Shown: piece by piece, positions 5,117-10,795 of the stretch
Layout: the number at the start of each line of letters is the position of its first letter
How positions within the stretch are numbered: position 1 is the first letter of the stretch
Source of the DNA: Natronomonas gomsonensis
GTDB taxonomy: Archaea; Halobacteriota; Halobacteria; Halobacteriales; Haloarculaceae
Assembly (NCBI RefSeq): GCF_024300825.1
Contig: NZ_CP101323.1
Location: 3,286,001-3,350,000 of the forward strand
Reading direction: 5' to 3'
Length of the DNA stretch: 64,000 bases
The notes under the pieces: generated by a model
Told to the model about the DNA's origin: nothing
The model's database searches: none
What the model saw: the letters and a program-made list of their open reading frames with translations, nothing else
Translations under genes and position numbers: made by a program

Positions 5117-5491
5117 TTATGGTTGAGTTACTTCGAGTTTGTTACGCCCCCGTAAACTAATTACGGGAACGTTTTCGTCCAGTAGCCGCCGCCGCAGCGG
5201 CATGTCGTTCGTGACCGCACCGTCGACCTCGCGGGCGATTTCGAGGACCGCATCGTCCGCATACGCCGCCTCGTGCTCGATAGGTTCGCACTCCCGGCGT
5301 GCGAGGTCCGCACCGACGCTTGCGGCCTTTGCCTCCTCGCCGTTGCCCTCGGCGAGGTCGTCGAGTTCATCCAGTACCGCCCGCGGGACGACCGTCTCGT
5401 GGTCGCCGAGAAGGCGGTCCAACTCCTCGAACGTCCGGACGCCGACTTCGACCGGCATCATCAGTGCGTTCGTATCGAGCACCACGCGCAT
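5117..5491 (-). CDS. PIN-domain protein, Fcf1/Utp24-like
   Basis: A 124-residue single PIN domain, a metal-dependent RNase fold. The acidic residues expected for the active site are visible: Asp in VVLDTNAL near residue 6, acidic residues in LDELDDLAE, Asp in YADDAVL and Asp in TNDMPLRRRL. The solitary form next to aIF2-gamma and rpoE resembles archaeal Fcf1-like proteins implicated in rRNA processing, so rRNA or tRNA maturation is the likeliest role. No antitoxin gene is adjacent, which argues against a VapC toxin. The ATG at 5491 overlaps the aIF2-gamma stop as TGATG; a GTG three bases earlier is possible. Confidence 0.85.
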   Translation of the reverse strand: MRVVLDTNALMMPVEVGVRTFEELDRLLGDHETVVPRAVLDELDDLAEGNGEEAKAASVGADLARRECEPIEHEAAYADDAVLEIAREVDGAVTNDMPLRRRLLDENVPVISLRGRNKLEVTQP

Positions 5492-6714
5492 CACCGAAGC
5501 GTTCCGACGCCGATGAGTCGCCAGCGCGCGCCGACTCGGCGATTGATTGCGATTTTCGCCCCTTCGGCGGCACAGACGGGACGTTTGAGGTTCACTTCAC
5601 ACTCGCCGTCGCGGGCGCTCGTGACTGCACCGACGGTCGTCGCCGTCCCGATGGTCATCATCAACGGCTCGCCCGTCGATATCTCCTCGACATCGCCCTC
5701 GCCGACGATGCGGTCGAACAGTTCGACGTCCATCGTGAACGCCTCGTGGGTCGGCGGGAGGCTCCCCGGCGGGCCAGCGACCTGTCCGGCGAGGGCGTCG
5801 CCCTTCGTCAGCGAGGGGTCCAGTCCCGTTCCGACGCCGAGCAGTCCGCCCGGTGAAACCTCGTCGACGAACTCGCCGCCGGCCTGCAGCGACCGAACCG
5901 TCGTCTCGACGGGCTGGTACTCCGATTGGCCGCCCTCCTCGATTTCGCGGCCGGGTTTGATTTCGATTTCGTCGTCGACTTCGAGTTGTCCCTGAGTGAG
6001 CGACCCGCCCAACACGCCGCCGGTGAGGTCCTCCCAGGTCGTCCCGGGTCGGTTGATGTCGAAGGAGCGTGCGACCTGCAGTCGCGCGTCAGTATCGGGG
6101 TCTCGCTCCGGCGTCGGGATGGTCTCCTCGACGGTCTGAATGAGGAGGTCCATGTTGACGTTCTGCTGGGCCGAGATGGGGACGATGGGTGCGTCCTCGG
6201 CGACCGTCCCCTCGACGAACTCCTCGATTTGCTCGTAGTTCCGGAGCGCCTGCTCGCGGTCGACGAGGTCGATTTTGTTCTGGGCGATGACGATGTTCTC
6301 GATGCCGATGATGTCCAGTGCCATCAGGTGTTCTTCGGTCTGTGCCTGTGGCACCGGTTCGTTGGCACCGATGACGAGCACCGCACCGTCCATGATGGAG
6401 GCACCCGACAGCATCGTCGCCATGAGCGTCTCGTGGCCCGGTGCGTCGACGAACGACACCGTCCGAAGATGCTCACTGGGCGAGCCGTCCGGGCACTCCT
6501 CCTCGACGGTGTAGCGTTCCGGCTCGTCGAGGTCCGGGCAGTGCCGGAACGTCGCGTCGGCGTACCCGAGGCGAATGGAGATGCCTCGCTTCATCTCCTC
6601 GGAGTGCTGGTCGGTCCACTCCCCGGAAAGCGCCTGTACGAGCGTCGTCTTCCCGTGGTCAACGTGGCCGACCAGTCCGATGTTCACCTCCGGTTGTCGG
6701 TGTTCTTGCGTCAT
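5491..6714 (-). CDS. eif2g: Translation initiation factor aIF2 gamma subunit
   Basis: GTPase subunit of aIF2 (407 residues), which carries initiator Met-tRNA to the small ribosomal subunit. The G1 motif GHVDHGKTT lies at residues 16-24, DAPGHE is G3, NKID is G4, and two beta-barrel domains follow. The zinc knuckle is reduced: the usual two CxxC pairs are single cysteines here (Cys59 and Cys74). The gene heads the information-processing operon and its stop overlaps the start of the PIN gene. A 12-base palindrome lies between its TATA-like box and the ATG. Confidence 0.96.
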
Positions 6715-7575: not shown

Positions 7576-7612
7576 GCGAAGATATTAGCCGGAGGCTGCT
7601 CTTCGTGTGGGT

Positions 7613-8530
7613 ATGAGTGACGCAGAGGGAACCTCTACGGAGCCCGAGGACCGAGGCGCCGTCTCGCCGTTCGACTGTGAGGCGTGTCTCGCCCCCGCAG
7701 AGGCCTTCGCGGTCGTCGGCAACGAGACCCGATTCGCCATCCTCAAGGCGCTCTGGGAGGCTCCGGACCGCCCGGTGACGTTCTCGGCGCTCCGAGACCG
7801 CGTCGGGATTCGCGACAGCGCACAGTTCAACTACCACCTCCAGAAACTGACGGGCCAGTTCGTCCGCAAGACCGACGACGGCTACGACTTCCGGAGCGCC
7901 GGCCGCGCCGTCATCCAGGCGATTCTCTCGGGGTCGCTGAACCAGAACCCGGAGTTCGGCCCGTTCCCGGTCGAAGGCGAGTGTATCGACTGTGGGGCTG
8001 GACTGCAGGCCCACTACGAAGAGGAACTGCTCTACGTCGACTGTCCGGCCTGTGGCCGCGCTCACACCGACTGGCAGTTCCCGCCCGGTGGACTCGAAGG
8101 GCGTGACCGCGAGGCGGTGATGGACGCGTTCAATCAGCGGGTTCGACACCTGCTGTGTCTCTCCGCCGACGGCGTCTGTCCGGCCTGCAACGGGCGCATG
8201 CAGACGGCCATAGCCCACGCCGACGCGGAAGACGACATCGACGTTGCGGTGACCCACCGATGCCGCCGATGTGAGAACACGACGAAGACGACCGTTGGCA
8301 TCGCCCTCCTCGATGACGCGGAGGTGGTCTCCTTCTATCGGGACCACGGTATCGACCTCAACGCGGTCCCGTTCTGGACGCTCGAGTGGTGCGTTTCCGA
8401 CCGCTACACCGAAATCGTCGACGACGATCCCTGGCGAGTGGCCGTCGAGATACCGCTGGACGACGAACGACTCAGCGTGGTCCTCGACGAGTCGCTTTCG
8501 GTCGTCGATGCCGAGCGTTTGTACGCGTAA
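7613..8530 (+). CDS. ArsR-like winged-helix regulator with two zinc ribbons
   Basis: A 305-residue probable transcription regulator. The N-terminal winged helix (about residues 25-100; VVGNETRFAILKAL, then FNYHLQKL) is ArsR-type. Two zinc-ribbon-like pairs follow: CIDC with CPAC (about 125-155) and CPAC with CRRC (about 187-225). The C-terminal 75 residues look like a mixed alpha/beta sensor. This architecture is common in haloarchaea, and its ligand is unknown. The ATG at 7613 is chosen over a GTG six bases earlier. Confidence 0.85.
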   Translation: MSDAEGTSTEPEDRGAVSPFDCEACLAPAEAFAVVGNETRFAILKALWEAPDRPVTFSALRDRVGIRDSAQFNYHLQKLTGQFVRKTDDGYDFRSAGRAVIQAILSGSLNQNPEFGPFPVEGECIDCGAGLQAHYEEELLYVDCPACGRAHTDWQFPPGGLEGRDREAVMDAFNQRVRHLLCLSADGVCPACNGRMQTAIAHADAEDDIDVAVTHRCRRCENTTKTTVGIALLDDAEVVSFYRDHGIDLNAVPFWTLEWCVSDRYTEIVDDDPWRVAVEIPLDDERLSVVLDESLSVVDAERLYA

Positions 8531-8996: not shown

Positions 8997-9965
8997 GTGC
9001 GGGAGTACCCCTTCGAACTCGCGGTGTGTGCCGCCGTCGAATCCGAAAGCGACGGCCTCATCGCCCGACAACTCGGCACGCACACGCGCATCGTCGACGC
9101 CGTCGAAATCCGTCCGGGCCCCGAGTTCGAGGACCGTATCGCCATCACCGCCGAGTCGATTCCCGACCTCGCCATCGAGAGCGACGTTGGCGCGGGGCGA
9201 GCCCGCTACTGGAAGGACGCCATCGACGCCGCTCCCGACCGCGCCAGGGGGGCCGTCGACCGAGCGATTGAAATCGGTTTCTTCGAGGCCGAGCGCCGCA
9301 ACGGCCGCCGATACGTCCGACAGACGGCGCGATACCCCGACTGGGTCGGCGGACTGCGGGCTTTCGAGAACAAACCCGACCTCGGCCGTCCCGGTGACCT
9401 CGAACTCCAGTTGCGGAAGGACGTCTCGCTCGCGCTGTTCGACGAAGTCATCCTCGTCACCGAATCCTACGTCACGGGCGCACACCTCAATCGCATCCCC
9501 GACTCCGTCGGCGTGTGGCGCTTCGACGCCGAAGCGGGTGATATCGAGGTGGTCCGGGAGGCCACGCCGCTGCCGACCGACGAACCGGGAATCGCCGTCC
9601 TCGATGAGTCGCCGGCCCGGGTCGATATCGAACCCGTCACCGCCGCCGAGAAGGCTCGCCTCCGCCGACGAATCGCGGAACGCGCCTACGGAAAGGGCTG
9701 GCGTCCAGGGACGCTTCCGGCCTGTAGCCAAGCCGACGCGCGTGGCCCGCCGTTCCGGACGGACGATGCGCTTCCCTACTGCGAGTGGAAGGGTCGACTG
9801 GTCGACCCTTCCCGGGAGTGCGGCGCCGAATGCGGCGGGTACGACCCCGCCGACCCACCGGACGCCGACGGCGAGGCGGCACGCGAACGTCACACGCCGT
9901 GGACCGCCGACCCGGCGGGAACTGACCGAAAACAGACGGGATTGGACCGCTTCTCCAGGACGTAA
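8997..9965 (+). CDS. DUF5787-like protein, possible nuclease fold
   Basis: A 322-residue haloarchaeal protein that I associate with DUF5787. The start is GTG at 8997 (VREYPFELAVCAAVE), with a cgtttttgc box about 27 bases upstream. The middle reads FENKPDLGRPGDLELQLRKD, then ALFDEVILVTESY, which resembles the ENK/EVK core of PD-(D/E)xK nucleases. Four cysteines near residues 240-280 (PAC, PYCEW, REC, AEC) could hold a metal or Fe-S cluster, as in Cas4- or AddB-type nucleases. A nuclease role is my inference and not established. Confidence 0.7.
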   Translation: MREYPFELAVCAAVESESDGLIARQLGTHTRIVDAVEIRPGPEFEDRIAITAESIPDLAIESDVGAGRARYWKDAIDAAPDRARGAVDRAIEIGFFEAERRNGRRYVRQTARYPDWVGGLRAFENKPDLGRPGDLELQLRKDVSLALFDEVILVTESYVTGAHLNRIPDSVGVWRFDAEAGDIEVVREATPLPTDEPGIAVLDESPARVDIEPVTAAEKARLRRRIAERAYGKGWRPGTLPACSQADARGPPFRTDDALPYCEWKGRLVDPSRECGAECGGYDPADPPDADGEAARERHTPWTADPAGTDRKQTGLDRFSRT

Positions 9966-9970
9966 CGCGT

Positions 9971-10795
9971 CTACACCACGAACTGCTCGCCGTCCAGCGC
10001 CATATCGTCGTCGAAGGCGTCCTCGGCGGCGATGTAGTGTGAGAGGTGGACGAGACGGTACTCCTCGATGGAGAGGTCCTCGGCGAAGGCGCGTGCGCCC
10101 TCGATAGTCATGTGTTTCGTCCCGAAGGTCCGGGGGATACCGTTCTCGTCGGCGTGGTCGCCGCCGTAGGGGTGGTACTCGCAGTACGCGGCCGGAACGA
10201 TGCCGTCGACGAACAACAGGTCGGCGCCGGACAGCACTCCTCGGGAGCGCTCGGAGACGCCGTAGTTCGTATCCCCCGACAGCGACAGCACTGCGCCCGT
10301 CTCGGGGTCCTCGACGCGCAGGCCGTAACACACCAGCGGCGGGTGTTCGACGGGGACGAGGGTCACCTCGAACCCGCAAGTCTCGAACGGTTCGAACGGC
10401 GACTCCGGCGAGACGGTGACGGCGTCGAGGTAATCGTACTTCTCTTCGATGGTCTCGGCGACGCTCTCGCCGGTGACCGGGTCGGTCTCGTCGGCCGCGA
10501 ACACAGGCACGTCCTCCAGCAGACGGTAGGCGTTGCCCAGTCCGTCGAGGTGGTCGAAGTGGATGTGTGAGATACAGATGGCGTCGGGCAACGCGACGTC
10601 GTTGTCGAGGAACTGCTGGCGGAAGTCGGGGCTGGCGTCGACGAGCAGCGACTCGCCGGTGCGTTCGTTGTGGACGTGGACCGAAAACCGAGAGCGCTCG
10701 ACGCCCCGTTTTCGTGCCTCGGTGCAGGTGTCACACTCGCAGTTCGGCGTGGGCGTCCCCGTCGTATCGCCGGTTCCGAGCAGCGTGACTTCCAT
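9971..10795 (-). CDS. MBL-fold hydrolase, PhnP-like phosphodiesterase
   Basis: A 274-residue metallo-beta-lactamase-fold protein opening with LLGTGDTTGTPTPNCECDTC, typical of PhnP and related cyclic phosphodiesterases. The metal motif HIHFDHLDG lies near residue 79, and SGDTNYG, HMTIEGA and LSHYIAAED supply later metal ligands. PhnP cleaves 5-phosphoribosyl 1,2-cyclic phosphate, but the exact substrate cannot be read here. CxCxxC near residue 20 may bind structural zinc. Its ATG overlaps the stop of the AAA ATPase gene (TGATG), so the two are translationally coupled. Confidence 0.85.
   Translation of the reverse strand: MEVTLLGTGDTTGTPTPNCECDTCTEARKRGVERSRFSVHVHNERTGESLLVDASPDFRQQFLDNDVALPDAICISHIHFDHLDGLGNAYRLLEDVPVFAADETDPVTGESVAETIEEKYDYLDAVTVSPESPFEPFETCGFEVTLVPVEHPPLVCYGLRVEDPETGAVLSLSGDTNYGVSERSRGVLSGADLLFVDGIVPAAYCEYHPYGGDHADENGIPRTFGTKHMTIEGARAFAEDLSIEEYRLVHLSHYIAAEDAFDDDMALDGEQFVV

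Follow-up and report, generated by a model that had tools for sequence, protein, structure and literature searches.

The window, by which we mean the whole 64,000-nucleotide stretch of Natronomonas gomsonensis DNA that we analysed, carries on its forward strand an open reading frame at 8997-9965 that starts with GTG and translates into 322 residues followed by a stop codon. The profile PF19100.5 (DUF5787) covers this frame over its full length at 328.7 bits (E 4.7e-98), against a curated PF19100 cut-off of 25 bits, so that the earlier note, made from the letters alone, had named the family correctly. The protein is a full member of DUF5787, a family to which no function is assigned. We annotate it as DUF5787 paralogue A (8997-9965, forward strand; 322 aa), a predicted PD-(D/E)xK nuclease with a C-terminal four-cysteine region. 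The sequence landmarks that had been picked out in it are present in the product: AFENKPDLGRPGDLELQLRKD at residues 122-142, EVILVTESY at residues 150-158, and four cysteines at positions 243 (PAC), 262 (PYCEWKG), 275 (REC) and 279 (AEC), which span 37 residues. A fifth cysteine, C11, had been absent from that list. Nearby in the window lie genes for a metallo-beta-lactamase-fold protein that has CECDTC close to its N-terminus (9971-10795, reverse strand), convergent with paralogue A, for a protein that joins a helix-turn-helix domain (DUF7347) to DUF7351 and contains several CxxC pairs (7607-8530, forward strand), and for a PIN_9 domain protein between the aIF2-gamma gene and an S1/Rpb7-type gene (5117-5494, reverse strand).

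Distribution of DUF5787

We found DUF5787 in 289 of the 292 genomes of the class. When the matches at E<=0.001 were read by eye across these 292 genomes, 270 held two copies, 16 held three and three held one (G162, G184 and G205). The three genomes of the 292 in which no match was found (G021, G218 and G286) measure 1.9-2.3 Mb, and DUF5787 may therefore not be essential throughout the class. A weak match in G021 (E 0.057) was dismissed as noise, being an arginine-rich frame of 160 residues. In a sample of 392 genomes from the phylum, 80 exceeded the cut-off, all of them from the window's own order. The sole match beyond that order, in G480, fell below the cut-off and proved to be no relative of DUF5787; it corresponds to the cysteine insert of a methionyl-tRNA synthetase, and a weaker match in G294 is likewise a methionyl-tRNA synthetase. 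Among 14 control genomes, Haloferax volcanii was the only one with DUF5787. Two pattern-based scans of viral contigs returned no relative and the phage records gave no match, while a single record out of 72,556 plasmids contained the family, an 827-kb Natronorubrum replicon that carries paralogue B.

Two paralogues in conserved neighbourhoods

The window's genome encodes a second DUF5787 copy (G000:C1:1465603) that is 37% identical to the first and scores 390.4 bits against PF19100. We gathered 103 locus entries and aligned 94 of them with the window protein, giving 95 rows. Nine entries were excluded: the window itself (L001), three loci identical to others (L002, L003 and L011), two cut by contig ends (L057 and L060), the two entries of L058, whose frame is broken, and L062, which matched the query only from residue 77. 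For family spread we hand-picked 20 B loci, followed by 19 A loci and one B locus; the B rows also include the best-scoring 30 B loci of the class-wide search, which biases identity among B proteins upwards. A tree of the 95 proteins separates 46 of the window's type (A) from 49 of the other (B) by one branch with 100/100 support. Because many families are represented on either side of this branch, the split is presumably older than the families sampled.

Among rows pulled from the loci, 47 of 50 A rows and all 52 B rows have GTG or ATG at or near the equivalent start place, with one row, L037, lacking a start codon at the chosen place; most homologues open there with MREF or MREY. These start codons and openings agree with a GTG start at 8997 for the window protein. 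The nearest named relatives of the window protein are from Natronomonas, at 91% and 92% identity. Against the two nearest relatives, dN and dS came to 0.041/0.219 and 0.034/0.198 (NG86), and the dN/dS ratio was about 0.17-0.25 in four pairs. The low dN relative to dS against the two nearest relatives indicates purifying selection on paralogue A.

We then counted neighbouring genes in loci longer than 8 kb (43 A and 21 B), taking distances between tblastn matches and scoring neighbours past the fetched stretch or contig end as misses. Around A, the aIF2-gamma gene lies upstream and divergent in 29 of 43 loci and a metallo-beta-lactamase-fold gene downstream and convergent in 30 of 43, each always in that orientation. 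A PIN gene occurs in 27 of the 43 A loci, and eight of the 43 have the DUF7347-DUF7351 gene upstream of A in the same direction. In 17 of 21 B loci, a Nudix gene precedes B on the same strand, at 170 bases or less in 14 of them, so placed that Nudix and B form a possible two-gene unit; an example of the Nudix hydrolase gene upstream of B is L072:3436-3912. DUF5797 is convergent downstream of B in 17 of 21 loci, overlapping or within 10 bases in nine (L088:4936-5499 is one DUF5797 frame convergent with B), and in 16 of 21 the uS10 gene lies upstream and points away from B. The neighbours of DUF5787 are translation and transcription genes as much as DNA-related ones, and most genomes have the family as A and B, two old paralogues that sit in differing conserved neighbourhoods.

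Invariant residues and predicted fold

Both paralogues share a set of strictly conserved residues. E7, E15, D34, E124, K126 and Q138 are invariant in all 95 aligned A and B proteins, as are R24, Q25, R31, R47, Y113, P114, W116, D142 and D149. Altogether, 31 of the 322 window-protein positions show a single residue throughout the 95 rows, at a mean A-B identity of 34%, a degree of conservation that exceeds chance by far. Conservation of the E-N-K triplet had been proposed as a check, and E124, N and K126 are each found in 95/95 rows; the same holds for every position from E124 to L129 (E124-N-K126-P-D-L129) except D128, which is kept in 94.

An AlphaFold2 model of paralogue A, built from 26 sequences, reached a mean pLDDT of 69.2. 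Averaged over ten-residue blocks, pLDDT was 79-94 at residues 11-40 and 121-230, 36-68 at 41-110 and 35-64 from 231 on. The modelled elements follow one another as helix 3-17, strands 21-27 and 32-40, an insert, strand 117-125 running into ENK, helix 135-145 and strand 150-155, an order that fits a PD-(D/E)xK core. The first helix (9003-9047, forward strand, as for all features below) bears the invariant E7 (9015-9017) and E15 (9039-9041) and the conserved C11 (9027-9029); being four residues apart, these three would lie on the same face of the helix. Strands 21-27 and 32-40 (9057-9116) hold the invariant R24, Q25 and R31 and, on the second strand, D34 (9096-9098), a residue of metal-ligand type. 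Strand 117-125 and the ExK motif (9345-9383) supply E124 (9366-9368), on the strand, and K126 (9372-9374), directly after it. The next segment (9399-9461) comprises helix 135-145 with the invariant Q138 (9408-9410) and D142, followed by strand 150-155 (EVILVT). In the PD-(D/E)xK superfamily, the D, ExK and helix Q positions provide the metal ligands, the lysine and the helix glutamine. In the model, D34, E124/K126 and Q138 appear to sit at these active-site places, from which we infer their exact roles.

When the whole model was compared with the PDB by Foldseek, no entry passed E<=0.001 and the leading hits had low TM-scores. With a second structural aligner, the best match was 3dnx (SPO1766; Z 12.7, rmsd 3.8, 138 aligned residues, 14% identity), followed by PaqCI (10.3), XisH (10.0 and 9.7), VC1899 (8.5), Card1 (8.4), Can2 (8.4 and 8.3), NucS/EndoMS (7.9), SdaI (7.0) and Bax1 (6.7), with other restriction enzymes and repair nucleases also listed. 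This aligner typically gives a best Z of 7-8 to queries that lack any clear match, so the first four rows (9.7-12.7) are the only ones well clear of that level. Ranks 1-20 of the listed structures run from Z 12.7 to 6.1, and we take nearly all of them to be PD-(D/E)xK proteins. The case for the predicted fold rests on the second structural aligner. Sequence searches of DUF5787 found no known nuclease family above cut-off; the NCBIfam sce7726 family, presumably PD-(D/E)xK-like, matched 16 of 26 members weakly, with a best E of 0.012 that is far under its cut-off. The fold guessed in the earlier note is supported by the predicted core and its alignment to 3dnx (Z 12.7), PaqCI (10.3) and XisH (10.0), and on the strength of the model we regard a PD-(D/E)xK fold as very likely for DUF5787.

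The insert between the D and ExK strands comprises 77 residues (41-117; 9117-9347) and was modelled in the full protein as a helix at 80-92 with a hairpin at 96-109. Modelled alone, it formed short helices, a 14-residue helix and a hairpin, with a mean pLDDT of 68.7 that rose to 86-88 in the blocks covering its long helix and its hairpin. Foldseek returned nothing significant for this model, and its best Z against structures was only 3.0 among the 50 chains listed, most of which we take to be winged-helix proteins. Residues 41-117 are a possible winged helix, with weak backing from the model and at low confidence.

A C-terminal four-cysteine region

The conserved linker R223...AERAYxKGWR (residues 223-236; 9663-9704) precedes the four-cysteine region (9723-9833), in which C243, C262, C275 and C279 are encoded by the codons at 9723, 9780, 9819 and 9831 and form a predicted zinc or Fe-S site. 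These cysteines, whose conservation had also been named as a check, are kept in 93-95 of the 95 rows (C243 95, C262 95, C275 94 and C279 93), and C11 in 93; at least four cysteines fall between residues 238 and 286 in 94 of 95 rows. Four rows have lost or moved a named tail cysteine and three of them still carry four. The first site reads CSC in L045 and the second reads CTNC in L056, each of these rows keeping four cysteines, L053 has C-x-C at the tail end, and L051, a paralogue A protein, has only three. The spacing in A is C-x(12-23)-C-x(11-12)-C-x3-C in 42 of 43 four-cysteine rows, the other having x1 at the end, and in B it is C-x(14-16)-C-x11-C-x3-C in 48 of 49, the other having x27 first. 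The two rows without C11 (L052 and L096) keep all four tail cysteines, which favours a metal site that is wholly C-terminal. The tail cysteines thus fit a four-ligand site that would be formed by the tail alone, and we consider it likely that DUF5787 has a four-cysteine metal site.

In two genomes that do not belong to the class, the PF19100 tail (profile positions 206-276) weakly matched the methionyl-tRNA synthetase cysteine insert, at E 2.9e-4 and 21.1 bits in G480 (L063:1-1995, reverse strand), where hmmscan gave E 0.0013, and at E 0.144 and 11.9 bits in G294. The likeness is restricted to the cysteine stretch, does not include the nuclease core and stays under the 25-bit cut-off, so that the two would share at most a type of metal site. 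As the synthetase insert is presumably a zinc knuckle or zinc site, this sub-cut-off likeness leans slightly towards zinc in the DUF5787 tail and is no proof of it. DUF7140 (PF23601), a short haloarchaeal motif C..C.HF...PYC..H......C, weakly resembles five of 38 DUF5787 members (best E 0.0013), and in the tail region of one re-scanned member, L072, it scored 13.9 bits against a cut-off of 27. A DUF7140 motif of the form C..C.HF...PYC..H....D.C was also observed at the C-terminus of a membrane-like protein (L121:1489-2463, reverse strand). A kinship with CDGSH iron-sulfur proteins, which appeared in the PDB sequence search at E 0.07 for A alone and 0.53 for A plus B, was rejected: the shared piece is only AY..WR....PxC, and the score drops as the profile widens.

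Comparison with known nucleases

We compared DUF5787 with characterized nucleases by scanning 26 members and then 38 members, the latter drawn from the 95 rows, against family profiles at E<=10; HMMER filters discard most weak matches, which limits the negatives from these scans. The best structural match of the model, 3dnx, is presumably MmcB-like, and its chain of 146 residues is too short to accommodate the DUF5787 insert and cysteine tail. The MmcB-like family (PF06319) was not among the families listed for the 26 and 38 members and, at E<=10, matched nothing in the window's genome. It did match in several control genomes, including Haloferax volcanii, with one of eight matches over the cut-off. 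PMC9578287 describes MmcB as a PD-(D/E)XK endonuclease that protects Caulobacter against mitomycin C.

The earlier note had likened the protein to Cas4, AddB and Dna2. The combination of a nuclease core with conserved cysteines is common to Cas4/AddB and DUF5787 and stands as an analogy, whereas the layout of the cysteines differs. In Cas4 the four Fe-S cysteines are split between the two ends of the protein, a single one towards the N-terminus and three towards the C-terminus (PMC3466216). Unlike Cas4, DUF5787 has all four after the core, with C11 placed within the first helix between E7 and E15. Cas4-type Pfam families were not listed for any of the 26 and 38 members at E<=10, and the Cas4-family protein SSO0001 (4ic1) ranked 37th, with Z 5.5, among the structures listed for the model. 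By these searches DUF5787 is no sequence-detectable relative of Cas4 or AddB.

NucS/EndoMS shares the PD-(D/E)xK core (Z 7.9 for 2vld and 5gke against the model) and is also encoded in the window's genome. Profile-profile comparison of DUF5787 with eight haloarchaeal NucS rows by hhalign gave a probability of 0.1, so the kinship would be structural and not one of sequence; unlike DUF5787, the eight aligned NucS rows have no four-cysteine tail. In the sequence tests made, DUF5787 is not a member of the Cas4, MmcB-like or NucS families. A further haloarchaeal family drew our attention in a genome lacking DUF5787: a DUF5784 protein (L064:1082-2107, reverse strand) shows, by eye, a LIEVTRP segment and an upstream D, and from this sequence DUF5784 could be another PD-(D/E)xK-like family.

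Discussion

A full-text search of one open-access collection returned no paper naming DUF5787, and searches for publications about DUF5787 itself, the adjacent genes, Cas4 and MmcB, and the core proteins of haloarchaea brought up no function for it. We favour, with moderate confidence, the reading that DUF5787 A is a chromosomal housekeeping nuclease of the metal-dependent PD-(D/E)xK type whose cysteines bind zinc or an Fe-S cluster, and that it probably takes part in DNA maintenance. In the mechanism that we infer, from catalysis and its metal to the preference for DNA, the role in repair and the pairing of A with B, a catalytic Mg2+ or Mn2+ ion would be held by D34 and E124 with help from E7 or E15, K126 would orient or activate the attacking water, and Q138 would occupy the customary helix after the ExK strand. 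The four C-terminal cysteines would form one structural metal site, zinc or Fe-S, that closes the tail onto the core, while nucleic acid may be touched by the invariant arginines together with the insert, if the latter is indeed a winged helix or a similar domain. The enzyme would process damaged or branched DNA in repair or replication, as a housekeeping function and not in defence, and paralogue B may share this work or pair with A.

How far each part of this reading can be taken depends on the evidence for the core, for catalysis and for the substrate. That the E-N-K motif and the cysteines are conserved for some reason other than a nuclease core would agree with the sequence searches, which reached no known nuclease family above cut-off, and with the non-significant Foldseek result; the confident core of the model, the top structural rows and the finding that D, ExK and Q fall on the strands and the helix where they should be make this very improbable. 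Nuclease cores can also be reused for non-catalytic binding or regulation, as we take to be the case for SfsA and the TBP-interacting Tk-TIP26 among the listed structures, and an insert that could be a DNA-binding winged helix would suit such a relic. Relics, however, usually lose catalytic-type residues, and those of DUF5787 are invariant in both paralogues (95/95), so that we consider a relic improbable and an active nuclease likely. Restriction enzymes and CRISPR-ancillary nucleases are among the closest folds, which could point to a restriction-type enzyme directed against viruses or plasmids. Defence genes are normally patchy, whereas DUF5787 occurs in 289 of 292 genomes, mostly in two copies at conserved places, with A and B on separate, fully supported branches; PADLOC matches were weak (best E 0.031). 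Because its presence is near-universal and its places are fixed, a role in defence is highly unlikely.

Most of the nearest folds act on DNA, and this, together with 3dnx, which we take to be MmcB-like, makes DNA maintenance the likelier role. The neighbour genes make RNA processing the chief alternative: the same fold and metal chemistry might serve an RNA substrate, such as mRNA or rRNA ends, and paralogue B would then act with the Nudix hydrolase encoded upstream. Consistent with this are the Nudix gene upstream of B (17/21), the divergent uS10 gene (16/21), the divergence of A from aIF2-gamma (29/43) and its convergence with the metallo-beta-lactamase-fold gene (30/43), as well as the presence of Card1/Can2, which have the same fold and also cut RNA, among the listed structures. 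Against it, A is not co-directional with those neighbours and so forms no operon with them, archaeal informational genes cluster anyway, and the PD-(D/E)xK superfamily acts mostly on DNA. We therefore regard an RNA-processing nuclease as unlikely, though a serious candidate, and by analogy with the superfamily the substrate is probably DNA rather than RNA. A bolder reading, which we consider unlikely, would make A and B the two halves of a near-universal, haloarchaea-specific nuclease system, perhaps a heterodimer, with a DNA-reading winged helix inside the core and a new C-terminal zinc or Fe-S staple, serving a core step of genome or RNA maintenance.

Haloferax volcanii carries DUF5787, which makes knockout and biochemical tests directly possible. 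Almost every haloarchaeon sampled keeps this family with its active-site set unbroken in 95 of 95 rows, yet it is filed under unknown function. If the cysteines were to bind Fe-S, DUF5787 would add a distinct example to the Fe-S nucleases, one whose cysteines are arranged differently, and if the protein is a nuclease, it would be an overlooked core enzyme of haloarchaeal DNA or RNA maintenance.
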